A stretch of DNA of 64,000 nt from Brachionus manjavacas (taxonomy: Eukaryota > Rotifera > Eurotatoria > Ploima > Brachionidae). Numbering within the stretch: the stretch's first letter is position 1; each line of letters begins with the position of its first letter. The notes under the pieces are model-generated. The model made no database searches, was not told the DNA's origin, and saw only the letters and a list, made by a program, of their open reading frames with translations. The DNA lies in contig JAHQIY010000007.1 in assembly GCA_019054805.1 (NCBI GenBank), positions 5,027,501 to 5,091,500 on the forward strand. Reading direction: 5' to 3'. This document shows positions 5,129 through 39,480 of the stretch, one piece after another. The translations under genes and the position numbers were made by a program.

Positions 5129-5823
5129 AAATTTATATTTTTATATTTCAATTAAAAACTCTTTTGCTTTATTTAATAAAAATTTTTAAAAAATCTTAGA
5201 TTAAAGATCATATCATGTGGCAATAGCCTATACTATTGCATTCAGTAATTTTAAATTAAATCTAATTAAACTTTAAGGCCATCTAAAGGTTTTATAGAAT
5301 GGTTTCACATTTTTTCAGTCTAATTAATTAGAAAAATAAAATAAAGTTGCTGACTAAATTCGCTATACTGATAATTATTATTATTTAATTGTTTACTAAC
5401 TGAGCCAAGCTAAAGTTCTAATTATCTGATAAAAAATTTATTTTTTTTAATTTAATTTTTAATTGACAAATTTTTTTAGAAAAACAGATGAGTTTTAAAA
5501 TATTTTTAAATTTTAAATTGTAAAATTTTCATTCAAATTTTAAGCTATTCATGTAAATTTTTAAGACTAAAATATGATTTAAATCTGCTAGCAAAAAGCA
5601 CAACATTAATTCATAAGAAAAATATTGCAAATTTCTAATAGAAGCATAAACTTATGATTATATTTTTCTCTACAATTGCAAAATATTTTCATAATTTCAA
5701 AAAATGGTTTCTCAAAACTAATACTTCTATTCATTTGGGTTTATTTTTTTCTAAAACTGCAAATTATTCACTTTTTGAATTACTCTCTCTATTTAAGAGA
5801 TTCGACATAGTTTTTTTTGAAAA
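5129..5823. other. No gene seen; 5' flank of the PAM2 gene
   Basis: AT-rich. TATTTAAG near 5790, about 30 bp before the PAM2-protein start codon, is the only promoter-like string. Confidence 0.4.
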
Positions 5824-6339
5824 ATGAGCGATCCACTAAGCTCTTCCAAGTTAAATCCAAGCGCAGTTGAGTTTGTGCCCAGCTTTCTGCAGAACAGGAA
5901 CTTCCAGCCGCCAAGTTTGCAGAGCGATGTAGATCCCTTCGAAATGGAGGCACGATGTGAAGCAGTTGTAGAGATTCTCCAAGATGACCGAATTCGGGAT
6001 CAACTGAATCCTGCCGCTCAGCAGGCCGCCTCGCCTAAAAGTCCGCCCCAAGAAGCGATCGAAAACGCTTGTGAAGAAGAAGATATGATGGAAATGATGG
6101 CGATGCAAGAGGAATGTCGCTTGGAAATGATGAAATTTTACATTCAATCTCAGAACCCCAATTTATTTGAGGAAATTTACCATGACGTGAGCTATCCCGA
6201 AAAACTGCTTGAGCCCAAGAAAAAGACCGAAAAAGAAGTCAAAGTGGAAAAAGCCAAAGACGAAATTGTAAACGATCTGAACACCTCATCCCCTGACTAT
6301 ATACCAAAAAAAATGTCCCAACTTGACATAAACAAATAA
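5824..6339 (+). CDS. PAM2-motif protein, probable poly(A)-binding-protein partner
   Basis: A single-exon 171-residue protein. Residues 9-22 (KLNPSAVEFVPSF region) match the PAM2 consensus LNxxAxxFxP, the peptide bound by the MLLE domain of cytoplasmic poly(A)-binding protein, so a role in mRNA translation or turnover is likely. The middle (about 85-110) is acidic and Met/Glu-rich, followed by QNPNLFEEIYHDVSYPEKL, and the C-terminus is Lys/Glu-rich and probably disordered. PAIP2 has its PAM2 near the C-terminus and an acidic PAM1 region before it; here the order is reversed, so I do not call it PAIP2. The start is the first ATG after a TATTTAAG string. The much lower AT content than the flanks supports coding. 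Confidence 0.75.
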   Translation: MSDPLSSSKLNPSAVEFVPSFLQNRNFQPPSLQSDVDPFEMEARCEAVVEILQDDRIRDQLNPAAQQAASPKSPPQEAIENACEEEDMMEMMAMQEECRLEMMKFYIQSQNPNLFEEIYHDVSYPEKLLEPKKKTEKEVKVEKAKDEIVNDLNTSSPDYIPKKMSQLDINK

Positions 6340-14860: not shown

Positions 14861-15159
14861 AAATAAATAAAAAATTAATGAAAATTGTAATTTATATTCT
14901 TACTTATTTATTCAGTAAATTACTTGACTAATTTAGTGAATTAATCTTTTTTCAGTAAATTAATCGAACATATTTTTAAACTAGTAATTTTATATATTTT
15001 CTAAAAAGCTAGTTAATTTAAAAATTTACGGTAACATATATATCATTACAATATGCCAGGACACAATTTTATTCCAGATAAAATTTCATTATTTTTTGAT
15101 ATAAATATAAGCATTTAATTTTTACTTAATTTCAATTAATTATTCTGACATTGTTTAGA

Positions 15160-16212
15160 ATGGATTTGTTAAAGAATGAAATTGCGAAAAAACGTAAAGA
15201 ACTTGAGGAAGCCAATCTGTTAAAAAATGGCCAAAAAAAGTATTTCAAAAGAGGAGACTTTGACGAAATTCAAACCAGAAGATTTATAGAACAAAATTTA
15301 AAGAATGCGACCGAATCGGATGAATCAAGTCGGGATTCTCACGATCTAAACTCAAAAGCTGACAAAAACAGGGAAAAAGAAGATTCGGAGAAGAAAATTT
15401 TGCCAAGACATGAAGTGGTGCGTCGTCTTAAAGAACGCGGCGAACCAATTCGTTTATTTGGCGAAACAGATTTAGAGTGCTACAAGCGTTTGAATCTGAT
15501 TGAAACTAGTGAACCTAAAGAAAACGGCATGAGAAACGATTTTAGAATGGCTATTGAAAAATCTGAACAAGAAAATTTAAACGAACTTATGAAAACTGTG
15601 GACACAGATGAGCAAAAAAACCAGATGGATGTTGAGGTCAAAGATGATGGAATAGATTTTAATGAAATAGTTGAGTTGAGCAAAAAAGCTCGTGAGAAAA
15701 ACACAGACTCGCAGTTGGTTCTGAAATTTATAAAATTTTTGGTAAAGCAATGGGGTAAAAATTTGAACAGCAGGACTTTGGATGAAAAACTTACTGTCAA
15801 GGGCAAAATCGAGACCGCTCTACATTCACAAACAAGTCTTTATTTAAAACCATTATGCAGAAAATTAAAAGCCAGAGTTTTGCCAGATGATATTTTGGAC
15901 TCTTTGGTCAAAATATGCCTCCAGCTGATAGAAAGAAACTATATCAAGGCTAATGAGTTTTTTTTGGAAATGGCTATTGGAAATGCACCATGGCCGATAG
16001 GTGCAACTATGGTCGGTATACACGCTAGGCCAGGGCGGGAGCGAATTGCTTCGAAACACGTCGCTCACGTCCTAAATGACGAAACACAGCGAAAGTATAT
16101 TCAAGCTGTCAAAAGATTGATTAGCAAATGTCAACAATATTATCCAACAGATCCGTCTAGATGTGTTGAGTATGGCATCAAAAATGAGAACATAACCATA
16201 ATGCCTAAATAA
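15160..16212 (+). CDS. PRPF18: Pre-mRNA-splicing factor 18
   Basis: Second-step splicing factor associated with the U5 snRNP and SLU7. A single exon of 350 residues; human PRPF18 is 342. The start is the first ATG (15160), giving MDLLKNEIAKKRKE, the expected N-terminus. Residues about 82-112 form the SFM/PRP4-like motif (RHEVVRRLKERGEPIRLFGE). The five-helix Prp18 domain spans about 190-335, with the conserved loop EMAIGNAPWPIGATMVGIHA near 270-290 and ARPGRERI after it. The middle (about 120-180) is acidic and linker-like. AATAAA at 16245 is a plausible polyadenylation signal. No intron is needed. Confidence 0.96.
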   Translation: MDLLKNEIAKKRKELEEANLLKNGQKKYFKRGDFDEIQTRRFIEQNLKNATESDESSRDSHDLNSKADKNREKEDSEKKILPRHEVVRRLKERGEPIRLFGETDLECYKRLNLIETSEPKENGMRNDFRMAIEKSEQENLNELMKTVDTDEQKNQMDVEVKDDGIDFNEIVELSKKAREKNTDSQLVLKFIKFLVKQWGKNLNSRTLDEKLTVKGKIETALHSQTSLYLKPLCRKLKARVLPDDILDSLVKICLQLIERNYIKANEFFLEMAIGNAPWPIGATMVGIHARPGRERIASKHVAHVLNDETQRKYIQAVKRLISKCQQYYPTDPSRCVEYGIKNENITIMPK

Positions 16213-25809: not shown

Positions 25810-27184
25810 TTAAAGATTTATTTATTTAAATTTAATAAAAAATTTAAAATGGCTTCGAGCCCACTAATTGAGTGTTACCTCTTTCAGCTCGCTCCTTCAG
25901 CCTAAATAAGATAAAATAAATAACAATTAAATAATATTATTGTTTTACAATAAACGAGAAAAAAAAAAAAAAAAAAGTCAAACTAGTTATAAATTACTCA
26001 GGATAAATCAAATTTTTACGTTTGATTTTACACAGGAACCAAAGATTTTTCAACCTTTGGATAGAGCGTATATTAAAAAAAACAAGAGTAAGGTACAATC
26101 GAATTAGGACTATGCAGGCATACGCAATCCGAATAACTGAATAGAAAGCTCCCAAAGGAGTTGATGTAACATGCATTTTAGCAGTGATTGCTGACCACGC
26201 ACTAAAATATTCCTCAACAAGTAACATGGTAAACTTATTTTTATATTTAAAACATTTGGTGATATAACGTGAACCCATTTGTAAAAACCTATCTTTTATT
26301 GATAGTATTCTACTCACTATGAAAAGTTCCTTAGTTGGGCTATCCCACTTGAGTCTGTATATACATCTTATTGCTCTGTTTTGAACTGTTTGGACTGATT
26401 TGGTACTAGTAATTGAAACACTAGCAACAGTAAAAAAGGAATAGTCAAAAAGTGATCCTATCAAGGCTGAGTAAATGTTATTAAGTGTTTTTTTGCTAAA
26501 ATGCCATGACCGGTGAGAGAAAATCTTTGTGATATTGAGTCTCTTGAGTGCTCTAGTTCTTAGGTTAAGGAAATGTGCATTAAAACACAAAAATTCGTCA
26601 AAAGTTATACCTAAAAAGACTGGTTTTGGGTTATATGGTATTTCTTCGCCAAATAAGCGAAGCTTTAAACTCAAACCCCCTCGTCCACTACCGGAAAAAA
26701 TAGTATACATACATTTTGATACGTTCATTTTTAATCTCCAACTTAAGAGCCATAACATTAACTTGCTTAAATAACTATTAATTACGTGAGTTATTCGTCC
26801 TGTTTTTTTGAAAAAAAATATAGCCCCAAGATCGTCAGCAAAAAGTGCTGAGTAATTGGAGTTCTTTTCGTTAGCTAAAGGGATGTCACCAATGAAAACC
26901 AAAAAAAGGAGAGGTCCTAGCACAGAGCCTTGAGGTACTGAGCAAGTTATGGGAAACAGACTACTAAATTTGCCGTTGACCTTAACTTTGAAAAATCTGT
27001 TACTAAGAAAATTTCGAACAAATCTGATTAAGTAAATAGGAACTCCTAGATATACTAACTTATAAATGGCATGCCATACCTTATCAAAAGCTTTAGAGAT
27101 GTCAAAAAAAACACCACAGACTTTACTACCATGAATGTGTAATTTAGTGTTTTTATATTGTCGATGCTGGCTAAATGATCGCAA
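25810..27184 (-). pseudogene. 5'-truncated non-LTR retrotransposon with RT core
   Basis: An open frame of 396 residues (27184-25994) contains RT motif A FFDISKAFDKVWH, motif B SVPQGSVLGPLLF and the catalytic FADD box (SALFADDLGA), then the thumb region (FLGITFDEFLCFNAH), LIGSLFDYSF, VQTVQNRAIRCIYRLKWDSP and the C-terminal ILSIKDRFLQMGSRY. The frame is intact, but the N-terminal RT motifs and the endonuclease are missing. The 5' end stops abruptly at about 27184. On the 3' side, minus-strand CTGAAGGAGCGAGCTGAAAG (25880-25900) and an AAATAAATAAATC tail (about 25815) resemble the hairpin tail at 23.04 kb. The motif pattern suits a CR1/jockey-like clade. Insertion target not identified. Confidence 0.85.
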
Positions 27185-27487
27185 AATATTTCGCTATTGA
27201 GGTATTTAATTAAATAGCTCTTTGAGATAAAGCATTTGTGTCAATGTCTATTGATTAGCCTCTTTAAATATCAATAAAATAAAATTAGCACTTGACTTTG
27301 CAAACTATGCTTTTGACATGTTTAAATCAAATTCGTAAAAGGTATACAGCATTTCAGTTTTTTTGTTCTTTATCTGATTCAATTAATCAAATTTTTGATT
27401 TTATTATTTTTTTGCAGTTAATAAATTACTTCAAATATAATTTAAATGTAAATTTTATTTCATTAATTAAAGTAAAAATGACGCTGA
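27185..27487. other. No gene seen
   Basis: AT-rich spacer between the LINE 5' truncation point and the SINE. A 71-codon frame here is Phe/Asn/Lys-rich and is not called. Confidence 0.4.
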
Positions 27488-27735: not shown

Positions 27736-28353
27736 GCATTTCTTTACTGAGAAAAGCATGATTTATAGTAAAATCATCTCGTTTTTTTATCCCAAGAATA
27801 TAGAAATTTAACAAGAATTTAAATTTTTTTATTTCAAAAATTACGCCAGATTCGGCGATGAAAAAGAAACAAATAAAGAAATATTAAAATATTTTGTTCG
27901 ATATCAAGAAGTACTTACTTAACGAAACAGAAATAAAATTTTAGATAACTTCTACAGTACTGATTTGTTCCAGTGGCTTTACCAAAATTTACGCGAATTT
28001 ACCAAAATTTTAGTAAATTTACGGGAATTCCGGTAATTTTACGTAAAATCGCAAAAGTGAAAAACAGTAAATTTACCGGAATTCCCGTAAATTTACCAGA
28101 ATTTAACGGATTTTCCGTAAAATTTCGTAAAAACCAAAAGGGCCAAAAAAATCAAAATTTTTGCAATTTTTTCACTTTTTTTAGTTTTTTTTCAAAATTA
28201 ATAAAAAAATTTAAAAGAAAAAAAATGTATTTTTTTACGCAAATTTTCGTAAATTTTTATTGATTTTAGTGATAAATAGTAAAAAAAAGGGAAAAAAAGT
28301 TAAAATAAAAGAAAAATTTAAATTAAGTTTTTTTAATATTGATATTATTAGAT

Positions 28354-28517
28354 CATTGAATATCTAGTCAAATTTTAGTTTAACGCAATACAAAGTAGAA
28401 AAAATTCAAACCGCAAAATTTGTAGCCCCTTTATGAGAGATACCAGCCCAAATATTAAGCTTTCCTTCATATTTGGACGTACTTGCGTTAAACTAAAATT
28501 TGACTAGATATTCAATG
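28354..28517. repeat. 35-bp perfect inverted repeat around an inverted transposase segment
   Basis: CATTGAATATCTAGTCAAAT... at 28354-28388 is repeated exactly inverted at 28483-28517; the loop is 94 bp. The loop encodes transposase on the minus strand although both neighbours encode it on the plus strand. Confidence 0.9.
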
Positions 28518-29331
28518 AAAACATGAATTCAGTGTTATACAGGCAAATAATGTCAGAATATTTGTTACCATTTGGTGCAAGTAAATTCGATTCGGAATTT
28601 CAGTTGCACCAAGACAATCATCCTAAACACAGTAGTTTATTTTGCAGATCATTTTTAGATATAAACAAAACTAATTGGGTAAAATAATAAGTAAATATAA
28701 AATTTAAAAACTAATTTAGTAATTAAATTTAAGATTAAATCACCCCCTAACTCGCCAGATTTAAACCCTATTGAAATGCTGTGGAATGAAATGAAGGAAT
28801 TTGCTAGAAAAAAAATGGTGTTTACCATAGCTGATGCAGCATTGGCTATAAGAGAATTTGAAAAATCACTAACAGTTGAAAAATGTAGTACAGTGGTGTT
28901 CCGGATTTAGTAATTTACGATAATTTACGTAAAAAATAGTAAATTTACCGAATTTTACGTAAAATATTGTAAATTTACGTAAATTTACAAAAGTAAAAAA
29001 ACGTAAATTTACCAGATTTTACGTAAAAATTGGTAAATTTCGAACATTTTACGTAAATTTATGTAAAAAAAAAAATGTCCAAAAAATTGAAATAATTTGG
29101 CACTTTTTAAAAAAAATTGAATTTTTTTTATCCTTCAACATTTATTTTCAAAATTATGAATAAAAAAAAATTTACCATAATTTACGTAAATTTTGGTAAA
29201 ATGTTATAATTTTAATGGTAAAAAATGGTAAAAAATTGTAAAAAATTTAAAATAATTAAAGGAATATTTATTAACAAAAAATAACTTGATTAAATTGTCA
29301 TTAAACATATACAATTGAATAGATTAACATT

Positions 29332-30349
29332 TTATTTTTTTGATTTATCCATTTTGATTGAATTAGATGCCCTTTCCCAAGCTTCTCTAAAGGAAAGATG
29401 TTGGGGAACGAATTTAACTAGATCATCTTTTGAAAAAAATTATTATTCTGTTTTTATACTTAAAAATAAATACTTTTTATTTCTAAAATCCTGTTCGGAT
29501 AATTTGTTTGGTAATATCCAAGTGTTTTATTTGGATCGTCTTTAAATTTTTTTTCTAGCTCACTTCTTAAAAAATTAGTGAATTCTTTGTTAGAGACTAT
29601 TAGAATTAATTAATTTAACAATTTTTTTTTTATTGCGAAATAACCTATTCCAATATTTGATCCACTTTCCATAGATGAATTACTTATTATAACATTATTC
29701 TCCGACGAATGTTGAGTTCTTTCTGAAGGATTGTTTATAATTTCTCTTAAGTCTTTTAAGTCTCTTTGCTCTTCATGAATTTTCAGTAAGCTGGCATTTA
29801 ACTTAAATAGATTTTCATTTATAGATGAAAAAGACCTTTCTATAAAATCATTATTTGATTTGTTATCTCTATTAAGTTTTCCCGTCTAAAAAAAATTATT
29901 ATTTTTCATAAATTTAAACATGAATCACTACTCTTGTTTTTGGTATTCTGAATATTTTAGAGCACTGAATTGTAGCATCAACAATTAAAAATTGTTTTCA
30001 TGCTCATGGAAAAAGGAAATTCTAGTCCCCTTCAAAAGCTTATTAATTTAAAAATTTAAAAAAAATATATTTTAAAACTAAAATTTAAGACTACTTCGTT
30101 TTTTTCAAGTGGCTCAATTATTTTTTTTATTTCTACACTTCCGGGTACCTGATTTAAAAAAAAGAATGGATGTTTTTCATTTTGAATTTCATAGGTTATT
30201 GCTATCATTTCTAAGTCATCATCGGCTTTTGTTTTTTTTATTACTTTTTCTTCATAATCTGAACTTTCATCGTCACTCTCAACATTTCTTTTTTTCTTTT
30301 TTGATTCAATTTGTTTTTCTCTATTCTTATTTTTGAGCTTAGGAGCCAT
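29332..30349 (-). CDS. Passenger gene of the inner Tc1 element, function unknown
   Basis: A four-exon model: 30349-30095, 29885-29645, 29596-29474 and 29426-29332, all with GT-AG introns of 209, 48 and 47 bp. The joined frame is 714 nt with no stop until TAA at 29334-29332, giving 237 residues. The N-terminus is Lys/Glu-rich with NLS-like KKKKR and KKTK runs (about 17-41) and an acidic SDDESSDYEE stretch. The middle (86-165) is Asn/Ser-rich with LKIHEEQRDLKDLREI helices. The C-terminus has NFLRSELEKKF, TLGYYQTNYP and LVKFVPQHLSFREAWERA. The last codons lie in the left inverted repeat, so the right repeat holds a copy of the tail (MDKSKK). I recognise no domain; a nuclear accessory or DNA-binding role is only inference. 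Confidence 0.7.
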
Positions 30350-30461
30350 TATATAAATGTCGTATTTATTTAAAAAAATTTGATATTTTTAAGTTAATGT
30401 GATATCTAATTTATAGTGTTTGTTATTGAGCTTAGATTAATTTTTCTCTTTTAAGAAAAAA

Positions 30462-31809
30462 ATGGATTTTAAAATATCTCGTCGAAAAAAAAGAGAGTTA
30501 AAAAAAGATGAATTCAAAAAGCAAATTTTGTTGCTAAGTAAAAGAAAAAAAAGTCCAAAGCTTATTCGAAAGATTTTAAAGCTTTCATATAACAAACAAT
30601 CTCTCCCATCATAAGAAGTAATTATTGTTTCTGAAAGAAAATTTAATACAAGCTAATATTTCGAACAAGTACATAAAAAAGATTTTGAAAGAAAAACGTG
30701 ATACCATTAAAAAAAGAGCAAACAAGCTAGCTTTAAGTTGTAAGCTTACAAAGTATATTCAAGTAAATTTATTTTCGAATAAATTCTAAATCATTTAAAA
30801 TTAAAACTTTTAATAGGATCAAACTATTTCAAACTTGGGCTGCTATAGTTCGTCTGAAATTGTTAAAAAAATTTTTTTTAAATTCAAAATTAAAATTAGC
30901 AGCTCGATTATAAGAAAATATAGGTTTAAACTAGGTTTGTCTTTAATTTAGTTAGTCAAATGTAAATCTTATTGTTTTTATTGTTAAGGATTCAGATACC
31001 GACGTCTCCGGCAGTCCCCATACCTATCTGAATCTCATAAGCTCCAAAGGCTAATCTGGTGCTTAAAACATTATAATTGTGATTTTAAAGAATTTATTTT
31101 CGTTGATGAAACAACCATTCGGTTATTTGAACCTCCTATGTATCACCTTAGGTACCCATCTGCATATCCAGACGCGTTTCCTTGTACTTCAAAAACAAAA
31201 TCAAAGCTTAATGTTTGGGGAGGTATATCATTTATGGGACCAACAAATTTTGCAGTAATTTATTTTCAAAAATATTACTAGAATTTTAAAAATTTTATAA
31301 CAATAGGTATTCACATCGAATTTAGATTCGATATTGTATAGAGAAATATTGGCTCAATACTTATTGCCTTTTGGTGCAATAAATTATGATTTTTGGTTTA
31401 AATTACATCAGGATAATGACCCCAAGCATAGATCTAAAATTTGTACGAATTTTCTAGAGAAAAATAACATTTATTGGGTAAAATTTTCAAAAATTCAATA
31501 ATAAATTTAATGACATTTTGAGTTTTTTTTTGCTTTTTTTTCCAATTCTCAGAATGGTAAAGTTTGTTGTCTAATAAAAATGTTTTAAAAATTTAGGTCA
31601 AGTCCCCACCAAAATCACCCGATCAAAATCCAATTGAGTGTATGTGGAACGAATTAAAGGTTTTTTTAAGAATACAGAAAATTCAAAATGAAAATGATGC
31701 TTTAAAAGCTATCAAGGACTTCAAAATTTTGCTAACACCAGAAAAATGTCAAAATTACATTAAACATTTAAAAAAGGTTAAAATTGAAAATATAAAAATA
31801 AAATTGTAA
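30462..31809 (+). CDS. Tc1-type DD34E transposase of the inner element
   Basis: Exons after the first: 30817-30934, 30989-31254, 31307-31477 and 31597-31809, all GT-AG and in frame. They encode SSSIIRKYRFKLGFRYRRL, FIFVDETTIRLF (first Asp), KLNVWGGISFMGPTNFAVF, LLPFGA, KLHQDNDPKHRS (second Asp) and SPPKSPDQNPIECMWNEL. Exactly 34 residues separate the second Asp from the Glu. The intron before SPPKSPD is at the same place as in the outer element. The N-terminal HTH exon (from ATG 30462 to 30762) starts MDFKISRRKKREL and later reads LIQANISNKYIKKILKEK, but these are one frame apart around 30600-30630. Either there is a frameshift or an intron was missed. The catalytic half looks intact. Confidence 0.85.
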
Positions 31810-32921
31810 TTAATTTAAATTAAAATCTAGACAATAATTAAAGTAATTGAAAATCAAGGAGGTTGGTCAAACAATTAAAAAGCATTAAAACTATTCAATA
31901 TATTTTTTTTTATATTTAAAAAATGAAAATAAAAAGATTTCAATCAAAATGGATAAATCAAAAAAATAAAATGTTAATCTATTCAATTGTATATGTTTAA
32001 TGACAATTTAATCAAGTTATTTTTTGTTAATAAATATTCCTTTAATTATTTTAAATTTTTTACAATTTTTTACCATTTTTTACCATTTTTTACCATTAAA
32101 ATTATAACATTTTACCAAAATTTACGTAAATTATGGTAAATTTTTTTTTATTCATAATTTTGAAAATAAATGTTGAAGGATAAAAAAAATTCAATTTTTT
32201 TAAAAAGTGCCAAATTATTTCAATTCTTTTTGGACATTTTTTTTTACATAAATTTACGTAAAATGTTCGAAATTTACCAATTTTTACGTAAAATCTGGTA
32301 AATTTACGTTTTTTTACTTTTGTAAATTTACGTAAATTTACAATATTTTACGTAAAATTCGGTAAATTTACTATTTTTTACGTAAATTATCGTAAATTAC
32401 TAAATCCGGAACACCACTGTAAATATATAAATCATCTGAAAGAGGTTGAAATTTAAATTAAAGTTTTTGGCTTTTTAAAATATTAATTTTGATAAATTAG
32501 GTAATTGAAATTGTAATTGAGAAAAATGGCAACTGGTCAAATCACTAAAATACATGTATCTAATAATTTCAATATTAAAAAAACTTAATTTAAATTTTTC
32601 TTTTATTTTAACTTTTTTTCCCTTTTTTTTACTATTTATCACTAAAATCAATAAAAATTTACGAAAATTTGCGTAAAAAAATACATTTTTTTTCTTTTAA
32701 TTTTTTTATTAATTGTGAAAAAAAACTAAAAAAAGTGAAAAAATTGCAAAAATTTTGATTTTTTTGGCCCTTTTGGTTTTTACGAAATTTTACGGAAAAT
32801 CCGTTAAATTCTGGTAAATTTACGGGAATTCCGGTAAATTTACGGGAATTCCCGTAAATTTACTAAAATTTTGGTAAATTCGCGTAAATTTTGGTAAAAC
32901 CACTGGAACAAATCAGTACTG

Positions 32922-33353: not shown

Positions 33354-34195
33354 ATAAATGAATTACTAAATAAGAGAAAACGAGCAGCACTAATAAAACT
33401 CAAAAATAATGAGCTAATAACCGAAAAAACCAGCGCGTACTTAAAAGGATATCTGTACAAAAGCTACATTATGCAAGTGCTATTCTATGGAATAGAAACG
33501 ATAAATCTTAATAAAAAGAACATGAATAGTCTAAAGAACTGTGACAACAACTTCCTTCATACTATATACGGCATACCAAAACGGTGTAGAATGATTAACC
33601 TAAGACTCATTTACAACATTAATCCAAATAAAAAACTTAAAATATTACACTTAAACTTCTTCAAGAAGCTTTGGCTTAACAATTACACCAAGGACATACT
33701 GAAAGAATTTTTTTTAGACGAACAGGTTAGGGTTACATCAAAAACCTACTTGAGATGCTGGATAAGATTGATTGATGCTCAGTGATCGATCGAAACATTG
33801 AGCTCCTAGGAAAATGAAAATACATCACATACAAGATGAACCTAGAATTCGAGTCAAAGGAAATAACCAAGATCTGGAACAGCTTAAAACACTATCAGGA
33901 AACACAATTGGACAAGTGAGAAGATAAACCAACTCTTAAGATATGACAGATGTTTAAATGACAATTCACTTTAATAAGAATATTGACGTTAAAATAAAAT
34001 TTTATATCTTATTTTTATATTTATTTTCGTTTATTGTTATCATCTGTACATCTTCGGCTTGTATTCGTTCAAAAATTTATGATATTAACTAAATTATTCA
34101 GGAATATAACGTCAACTTTCTTTACACGACGTTGAGAAAATGGTCGGAAAACGGCCTCGGCACTAGAAATAAATAAATAAATGAATCACTAAATG
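33354..34195 (+). pseudogene. Non-LTR retrotransposon 3' end, second clade
   Basis: Frame LLNKRKRAALIKLKNN, GYLYKSYIMQVLFYGIETI, NCDNNFLHTIYGIPKRCR, runs to a stop at 33782-33784. LYGxETxxL followed by xxxNxFLRxxxG is the post-RT signature of LINE-type elements whose RT tail differs from the other fragments here. Decayed C-terminal coding follows to about 33950. The 3' end at 34130-34190 has GGTCGGAAAACGGCC, which can form a short stem-loop, then a GAAATAAATAAATAAATG tail. 5'-truncated and inactive. Confidence 0.65.
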
Positions 34196-37876: not shown

Positions 37877-39480
37877 ATGATTTCTAAGCAATTTTTGACT
37901 TTAACAATTATATTTACATCCTTGAGCTATGGCGAATCTTTAAATCATTTTATCCGCGGACGCCGTTTTGTTCAGAGCTCCGAAAAAATAAAACTCTTTA
38001 AAATAGAAAACAACATTACTGATTTGTACTATGACCAAGAGTTGGATCATTTTAAGGAAGCTGACAAGCGCACTTGGAAACAAGTAATTCTAATCCTGCT
38101 AAAAAATTGCTTTAAAATTTACTTGAATTTTTTTTCAAATAGCGTTACTGGGTGAATGATCAATTTTTTAGACGTCCATCAGGTCCTGTTTTTTTGATGA
38201 TTGGTGGCGAAGGCGAAGAAAATCCAATTTGGATGACCAAAGGCAACTGGGTAGAGTTGGCGAAAAAATATGTATATTAAAAAAAATAAATTTCTCAAAT
38301 ATTGATTTTACTAAGATTAAATTTTATTTTATAGAACGCTTTACTTGTTATGCTAGAGCACAGATTTTATGGAAAAAGCCGTCCAACCGAAGATATGAGT
38401 ACAGATAACTTAAAGTATCTGAGCAGTGAGCAAGGTTTGGCTGATTTGGCCACATTTCGTCAATTCATTCATTCTAGTTTTAATTTAACTGACTCAAATA
38501 GATGGATTTCTTTTGGTGGCTCATATCCTGGATCTTTAAGCGCCTGGTTCAGACTTAAGTATCCACATTTAGTCTATGGAGCTGTGAGCTCATCAGCGCC
38601 AATGCTGGCCTTGATCAATTTTACCGACTATTTAGTTGTGGTCAATAATTCCTTATCGTTGTACTCGGCCAATTGTCCGCGCTACATTTCACAAGCCACC
38701 AAACAAATTCAAGATCTAATGAAAACAGAAGGAGGCCGATTGACTCTGCAAAAACTGTTCCGCACATGTGATCCTATAGACACAGATGACGATGTGACCA
38801 ATTTTTATTCAGCAGTTTCCGGCAATTTTGAAGAAGCGGTCCAGTACAATAAAGATAACCGTTTGTCGAGCAATACTTCGATTACAATTGATCTTTTGTG
38901 TGATACCATGGCTCATGAGAGCATCGGGGACCCGTTGACCAGATATGCAGCTGTCAACGATATATTTTTGCAAGAATTCTCTCAATCATGCTTAGATATA
39001 TCATACAAGAAATTTATCAAGGAATTACAGCAAAGTTCATGGGAAAGCGAAGCTGCTGTTGGTGGTCGCCAATGGACCTATCAAACTTGCATAGAATTCG
39101 GCTTTTTTCAGTCAACTGACTCACAAAAACATCCTTTTGGTCAAACAGTACCGGCTGATTTTTACATTAAGCAGTGTAGAGACATTTACGGACCTGATTA
39201 TGACATAAAGTTATTAGAAAGGTCTGTTTTGGACACAAATACCAACTATGGTGGATACAACTACGAAGGCTCACGGGTCGTGTTCATAAATGGTGAAATT
39301 GATCCCTGGCATGCGCTTGGTTTTACTGCTAAACCACCTAATATGTTAACTGATACCATTTTTATCAAAGGAACAGCTCATTGCGCAGACTTGTATCCTG
39401 CTAGTGACCGGGATCCTATCTCGCTAATTCAAGCTAGACAAAAAATTGATACCAAAATTTCGCACTGGTTAGCACTTTAA
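37877..39480 (+). CDS. Peptidase family S28 (PRSS16 / lysosomal Pro-X carboxypeptidase-like)
   Basis: A secreted or lysosomal serine peptidase cleaving after proline or small peptides. Exons 37877-38083, 38143-38271 and 38335-39480, all phase 0, GT-AG, introns 59 and 63 bp, give 493 residues, the usual family length. Residues 1-19 are a signal peptide (LTIIFTSLSYG). N-terminal landmarks are YYDQELDHF, RYWVNDQFF and GPVFLMIGGEGEE. The nucleophile Ser is in GGSYPGSLSAW (about residue 175), Asp in NGEIDPWHALG (about 435) and His in KGTAHCADLYP (about 461), so the triad is complete. LLVMLEHRFYGKS is the conserved strand-helix before the nucleophile. PRSS16 is a closer length and motif match than DPP7, but I cannot separate them firmly. 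Confidence 0.95.

Follow-up and report, generated by a model that had tools for sequence, protein, structure and literature searches.

This report describes a mobile element with two genes in a 64,000-nucleotide stretch of the Brachionus manjavacas genome (contig JAHQIY010000007.1, positions 5,027,501 to 5,091,500, forward strand), which is referred to as the window and in which all positions are counted. The element spans positions 28891-32419 and contains a transposase gene of the Tc1 type, a second, spliced gene in divergent orientation, here designated ORF2 (open reading frame 2), and long terminal inverted repeats (TIRs); the features are listed in Table 1. The second gene had been pointed out in a preliminary description made from the sequence alone. 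The copy in the window is denoted W, and L-numbers (L009 and so on) designate other loci of the same genome, of which 114.17 Mb were searched.

Structure of the focal element

Both ends of W read CAGTGGTGTTCCGG and adjoin a TA dinucleotide, and the TIR lengths in Table 1 bear out the TA-bounded element with inverted repeats of about 475 bp that had been proposed in the preliminary description. The two TIRs, aligned together with their TA over 486 columns, show 471 identities, 15 gaps, and no substitutions, and this substitution-free pair suggests that W is a young copy. The W TIRs also contain an internal inverted repeat. When the sequences flanking 28891-32419 are fused via a single TA, an older transposase frame regains its 3' end (...TVEKCSKYINHLKEVEI, followed by a stop codon), which indicates that the insertion is clean and that the boundaries of the element are firm; the restored C-terminus is similar to that of the younger transposase (...TPEKCQNYIKHLKKVKIEN). 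The younger element is nested in an older, related one (27955-32921), within the 3' end of its transposase, an arrangement absent from the preliminary description. The TIRs of the older element are approximately 90% alike, and its surviving parts gave transposase pieces only, with no match to ORF2.

TIRs starting with CAGT are a motif of the Tc1/mariner (IS630-Tc1-mariner) superfamily. Both W ends carry this type of start (CAGTGGTG), and TACAGT ends were also found in L013, L014, L015, L016, L019, L023, L027, L041, L043, and L044. With its TA target-site duplication, CAGT-type TIRs, and the DD34E spacing of its transposase, the focal element belongs to this superfamily.

The transposase gene (plus strand) comprises six exons from the ATG at 30462 to the stop codon at 31807-31809 (338 codons), and its second catalytic aspartate and its catalytic glutamate are 34 residues apart. 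The joined query, which included four intron-derived residues, matched the Pfam family DDE_3 with an expectation value (E) of 1.5e-7 (31.8 bits, cut-off 28.6); the match to HTH_Tnp_Tc3_2 scored 16.9 bits, below the cut-off of 31.5, and exon 1 queried alone matched no family. The best-scoring model of the W transposase contains one in-frame stop towards the end of exon 1 (30612-30614), at a position that is open in the sister copy L009, which has one stop elsewhere. Because of this stop ORF2 alone is intact in W, so that the divergent DD34E transposase of the preliminary description stands, while intactness is limited to the second gene. Distant transposase matches (34-35%) at G000 C32:512358 and C35:298404 are part of long open frames (433 and 536 amino acids) on contigs without a listed ORF2 exon 1, and are perhaps ordinary single-gene relatives.

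ORF2 (minus strand) starts with the ATG at 30347-30349 and consists of four exons separated by three GT-AG introns, the joined frame being 714 nt including the stop codon and encoding 237 amino acids. Our computation yielded the same exons, junctions, and stop-free frame as the preliminary description. Alternative joins exist, since a donor at 30092 gives a protein of 238 amino acids and a donor at 29460 leads to an end after 210 or 211 amino acids. The focal ORF2 protein, which was built on the preliminary junctions and therefore favours their recovery, was aligned to the DNA of 20 other copies. All three introns fell at most three residues from the same place in 9 of the 20 copies modelled (L009, L013, L014, L015, L016, L017, L023, L026, and L027), and the first intron did so in 17 of the 20; L041 has all three introns at matching places. 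ORF2 is full or nearly full and free of stops and frameshifts in W, L009, L014, L027, and L041, and in the part that could be aligned the L023 protein is approximately 31% identical to the focal one.

Association of ORF2 with the transposase across the genome

A search with ORF2 exon 1 (first 86 residues, E up to 10) gave 33 rows, corresponding to 32 places after removal of a duplicate-frame row; 28 of these places had E values up to 0.01. A divergent transposase catalytic exon was present within 4 kb at 16 of the 32 places (15 of the 28, plus one of the four weaker ones), compared with an expectation of approximately 0.06. The pairing count was made with the best 67 of 109 catalytic-exon rows and 58 of at least 155 C-terminal matches, and ORF2 exon 1 accompanied 16 of these best 67 catalytic-exon places. 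Moreover, 13 of 14 places with a transposase first exon were located 240-768 bp from an ORF2 exon-1 place (start to start of the matches), the exception being C19:184739. This recurring divergent pairing contradicts a separate insertion of ORF2 inside the element, evidence for which the preliminary description had named as grounds for refutation. Moreover, as ORF2 exon 1 adjoins 13 of the 14 transposase first exons, this lineage departs from the single-gene plan of animal Tc1-like elements, in which the transposase is the only gene. It is almost certain from these comparisons that the element has ORF2 as a conserved second gene.

For the C-terminal part of ORF2, a search with the last 72 residues (E up to 10) gave at least 155 matches, five of the better ones of which were examined. 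In L031 the ORF2 3' end stands opposite a transposase 3' remnant between repeats of 49-50 bp, an arrangement that fits an internal deletion, and in L034 a transposase remnant is on the same strand as the ORF2 remnant. L033 (1164-3013) is a fold-back structure with arms of 842 and 835 bp that are 98% alike, are 173 bp apart, and each contain ORF2 exons. The stretches examined in L032 and L035 had no flanking TIRs and gave no transposase match with an E value of less than 0.01.

Selection and lesions

Codon models were fitted to eight frameshift-free copies of ORF2 (224 codons, stops masked in L010, L013, and L023) and to ten copies of the transposase (324 codons). The ratio of nonsynonymous to synonymous substitution rates (dN/dS, omega) was 0.070 for ORF2, with a log-likelihood (lnL) of -4306.1 versus -4507.7 at omega 1 (a difference of 202 lnL units), and 0.090 for the transposase (lnL -5201.9 versus -5522.1 at omega 1), values that are rough because of synonymous saturation. 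Both genes are under purifying selection between families. The preliminary description had named an unconserved frame in other copies, with dN/dS near 1, as the finding that would count against the gene; between families the ratio is 0.07, though the pair W/L009 gave 1.24. Trees of ORF2 and of the transposase contain the same grouping for the four families that occur in both, a comparison without a support test.

The ORF2 proteins of W and L009 differ at 13 amino acids, 10 of which lie between residues 173 and 201 (exon 3), and some of these are common to L009 and L011. This clustering, together with the sharing with L011, makes the exon 3 differences in L009 look like gene conversion between copies.

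Lesion counts vary with the splice choices of the model. Every two-gene copy modelled has a lesion in at least one of its genes: ORF2 is open and the transposase has a stop in W, L009, L014, and L041, and the converse, an open transposase with a stop or frameshift in ORF2, applies to L013 and L015.

Motif arrays in the TIRs

Nine TIRs from eight elements were analysed (the two of W and one each of the outer element, L013, L016, L023, L027, L041, and L043). The motifs TTTAC and GTAAA together occur 16-30 times in each, versus 2.9-4.7 times on average and at most 8-11 times in dinucleotide shuffles, all nine TIRs exceeding every one of 300 shuffles. Their density was 57-71 per kb in four TIRs, whereas the interior of the element has 2.0 per kb and two stretches of the window have 3.5 and 4.2 per kb. 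Among same-motif distances of at most 60 bp, multiples of 10 made up 46 of 67 in one W TIR and 49 of 71 in the other, and more than half in each of the nine TIRs. The palindrome TTTACGTAAA occurs four to six times in eight TIRs and once in the outer element. The families that share the arrays have catalytic exons that are 53-64% identical to the focal one. A helically phased array that is common to diverged families suggests that these arrays, with approximately one site per helical turn, hold a scaffold of bound protein.

The ORF2 protein

The ORF2 protein begins with a Lys-rich segment (10 Lys or Arg in 25 residues), followed by an acidic stretch (10 Asp or Glu in 23) and a conserved block at residues 43-85; the C-terminal region is conserved as well. 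In the middle part, 8 of 11 a/d positions are hydrophobic in the best of seven heptad registers. Searches against Pfam, PHROGs, and PDB gave nothing or sub-threshold matches only, in line with the preliminary remark that no domain was recognised. One alignment used as a PDB query, which gave no hits, had residues of the focal query in the first eight positions of its L020 row; none of the counts depends on it. AlphaFold prediction of exon 1 alone, with no alignment, was poor (mean pLDDT, the per-residue confidence score, 64.4; pTM, the predicted template modelling score, 0.16). A BEN domain at the C-terminus, an idea obtained by eye, was rejected, as the genome contains 11 BEN places, none of which is at a listed ORF2 place, and profile comparison gave a probability of 0.9%. 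The C-terminal profile had 27 pattern matches in viral contigs, none of which was confirmed.

Function of ORF2

The reading that we favour, with a probability of roughly 0.5, is that ORF2 encodes a nuclear DNA-binding accessory of transposition that acts on the TTTAC/GTAAA arrays. The Lys-rich start would direct the protein to the nucleus, and a putative helical middle part may allow it to oligomerise. It would then bind the arrays, which fill the long TIRs with a phase of about one helical turn, and gather or open the two element ends for the transposase; alternatively, it may aid expression of the element or help to keep it active.

Several observations weigh against such an accessory role. 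Domain and profile searches found no known DNA-binding domain in ORF2, the TTTAC/GTAAA motif was selected post hoc from the TIRs themselves, and the transposase alone could be what binds the arrays. The omega of 1.24 comes from the sole near-identical ORF2 pair with both kinds of change, and from few changes, and synonymous sites are saturated in most between-family pairs. Furthermore, ORF2 exon 1 is not listed at 51 of the 67 catalytic-exon places. Five of the 51 were examined; L029, L030, L040, and L043 have lost ORF2 along with the first transposase exon, as in internal deletions, and L044, chosen as a transposase locus without a listed ORF2 exon 1, does contain an ORF2 exon-1 remnant. Likewise, 16 of the 32 ORF2 exon-1 places are without a divergent transposase, nine of which were examined (L012 twice, L019, L020, L022, L024, L025, L027, and L028). 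L019 and L027 are ORF2-only elements that have TIRs, transposase and ORF2 are on the same strand in L024, and one of the two L012 places has a weak match to transposase exon 1; at the other L012 place and in L020, L022, L025, and L028 no transposase was found in the sequence examined. Non-autonomous derivatives that have retained their TIRs and lost one or both genes are part of this lineage of elements.

By analogy with VANC of the Arabidopsis VANDAL elements, ORF2 could instead be an anti-silencing protein that binds the motif repeats at the element ends and fends off host silencing; a silencer antagonist, like a transposition accessory, was among the options named in the preliminary description. 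This is rather unlikely, although the concentration of short motif arrays in the element ends and a second element gene without a recognised fold would both fit, as would the fact that VANC targets are often tandem repeats (PMC5735166); according to the same source, VANC targets vary considerably between related elements, whereas the nine TIRs share one motif.

Somewhat less probable still is an element-encoded repressor or copy-number regulator that would act on the TIRs or on the 112-bp space shared by the two genes. The copies with an open ORF2 beside a transposase with a stop (W, L009, L014, and L041) and the ORF2-only elements (open in L027, with a stop and a frameshift in L019) would be in keeping with such a regulator. 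The converse copies L013 and L015 speak against it, however, and constrained retention across diverged families better suits a gene that aids mobility.

The preliminary description had also considered a captured host gene, and ORF2 is indeed spliced like host genes and its last exon extends into the TIR. That it is a passenger of this kind is nevertheless very improbable. No stand-alone host-like copy was found among the 32 exon-1 places, the sole match in a long frame (2213 amino acids) having an E value of 5.9, and exon-1 queries from two other families led to 25 places, all 25 known from the focal query, and to 27 places, 26 of which were known. Searches of the genome with exon 1 of three families thus left this option unsupported, as no stand-alone host source was found, though a diverged or intron-split gene could escape them; in addition, constraint and recurring pairing are unlike a passenger. 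Finally, the idea that the ORF2 model is an artefact, made of chance open frames in AT-rich DNA linked by convenient GT-AG pairs, can be practically dismissed, for although short AT-rich introns offer many junctions and the alternative joins are also open, the same exon and junction pattern is recovered, free of stops and frameshifts, from alignments of the diverged copies L014, L027, and L041 and the codon model shows strong constraint on the frame.

Genomic setting

The region around the focal element is a nest of mobile elements (Table 1). In the older element, an inverted pair (55 nt, 84%) at 28334-28537 and, at 28400-28480, a fragment of transposase exon 4 in reversed orientation indicate internal rearrangement. 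A reverse-transcriptase frame (RVT_1, E 2.6e-16) is located at 25994-27193 on the minus strand, and a plus-strand frame at 33354-33785 resembles a retroelement fragment by eye and had no Pfam match. The nest is surrounded by host genes for a Prp18/PRP4-domain splicing factor (15130-16212), a serine carboxypeptidase S28 (38335-39480), and a PAM2-motif protein (5821-6339). The G+C content is 28.3% in the window and 27.2% in 19 ten-kb loci.

Table 1. Features of the focal element and of the older element that it entered, in window positions.
Feature	Position	Strand	Remarks
Older related element	27955..32921	+	Entered by 28891-32419; ends CAGTACTG, TA outside; transposase remnants 28508-28898
TA target-site duplication, left	28889..28890		
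Left TIR	28891..29362	+	472 bp; TTTAC/GTAAA arrays phased by 10 bp
ORF2 exon 4	29332..29426	-	Remainder of C-terminal region; final 31 nt inside left TIR
ORF2 exon 3	29474..29596	-	Start of conserved C-terminal region
ORF2 exon 2	29645..29885	-	Possible coiled coil, residues 97-134
ORF2 exon 1	30095..30349	-	Lys-rich, acidic, then conserved block, residues 43-85
Space between the two start codons	30350..30461		112 bp; presumed bidirectional promoter
Transposase exon 1	30462..30617	+	In-frame stop 30612-30614 in W
Transposase exon 2	30670..30762	+	
Transposase exon 3	30817..30934	+	
Transposase exon 4	30989..31254	+	First catalytic D, FVDET
Transposase exon 5	31307..31477	+	Second catalytic D, HQDND
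Transposase exon 6	31597..31809	+	Catalytic E, NPIE; includes stop codon
Right TIR	31939..32419	-	481 bp; indels are the sole differences from left TIR
TA target-site duplication, right	32420..32421		

Comparison with known systems

Canonical animal Tc1-like elements (Tc1, Bari, and Sleeping Beauty type) carry one gene. The focal element has the same TA target, CAGT ends, and DD34E transposase with DDE_3 as these elements, and is unlike them in its two divergent multi-exon genes and in TIRs of nearly 0.5 kb that are packed with phased arrays. PIF/Harbinger elements encode a transposase and a Myb-like protein, and differ from the Tc1 type in transposase family and target site. They resemble the present element as two-protein DNA transposons with a presumed DNA-binding partner, and the resemblance does not extend to a Myb-like second protein, since ORF2 had no Pfam match above cut-off. 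VANDAL transposases are of the Mutator type, whereas the focal transposase is a DDE_3 protein with DD34E spacing. VANDAL elements with VANC and the focal element both have a second element gene and short motif repeats outside the genes (PMC5735166), a likeness in plan.

Similar in plan are the Tc1/mariner elements of ciliates (Oxytricha TBE, Euplotes Tec, and Paramecium Sardine, Thon, and Anchois), which combine an IS630/Tc1-type DDE transposase and additional ORFs, several of them without a known function (PMC4724952, PMC7325037, PMC3464196). An extra ORF beside the DDE transposase is common to these elements and the focal one, in which ORF2 takes that place. The statement in the preliminary description that a transposase is normally the sole product of Tc1/mariner elements accordingly holds as a norm, from which these ciliate members depart. 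The same sources give dN/dS values well below 1 for all three genes of TBE (PMC4724952, PMC7325037, PMC3464196). They also describe TIRs of approximately 700 bp and three ORFs for Tec (PMC7325037), palindromic TIRs of 425 bp and up to four ORFs for Sardine, and palindromic TIRs of approximately 700 bp for Thon (PMC3464196). By these accounts the TIRs of Tec, Sardine, and Thon are long like the focal ones, and the palindromy of Sardine and Thon resembles the internal inverted repeat of the W TIRs. The short TIRs reported for TBE (approximately 80 nt; PMC4724952, PMC7325037, PMC3464196) and for Anchois (approximately 22 nt, with two hypothetical ORFs; PMC3464196) are unlike the focal TIRs of nearly 0.5 kb. 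Moreover, the ciliate elements are described as having three or four genes, including a tyrosine recombinase (Tec, Sardine, and Thon) or a zinc-finger/kinase ORF (TBE), compared with two genes in the focal element; no Pfam match to a tyrosine recombinase or a zinc-finger/kinase was obtained for ORF2 or for eight further element frames of at least 50 amino acids, a scan that shorter or split frames would escape.

For animal Tc1/mariner elements, no second gene was found in the titles and abstract openings of the literature searched, a body of text in which Repbase and most subscription papers are absent, so that an earlier description is possible. Tc1/mariner elements are regarded as the simplest cut-and-paste transposons, in which one protein does everything. 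A conserved partner gene in several families of one animal genome would mean that this superfamily is able to evolve two-component systems outside ciliates, and the genome offers natural two-gene, ORF2-only, truncated transposase-only, and fold-back derivatives for probing the role of the partner. Extra genes are already known in Tc1/mariner elements of ciliates, and the present element is similar to these in plan. We tentatively propose, as a possibility well short of established, that a lineage of animal Tc1/mariner elements has long been two-component, in that its transposase would depend on a co-evolving partner without a recognised fold that acts on helically phased arrays in half-kilobase TIRs, and to which end recognition or escape from silencing may have been handed over, in parallel to the ciliate elements.

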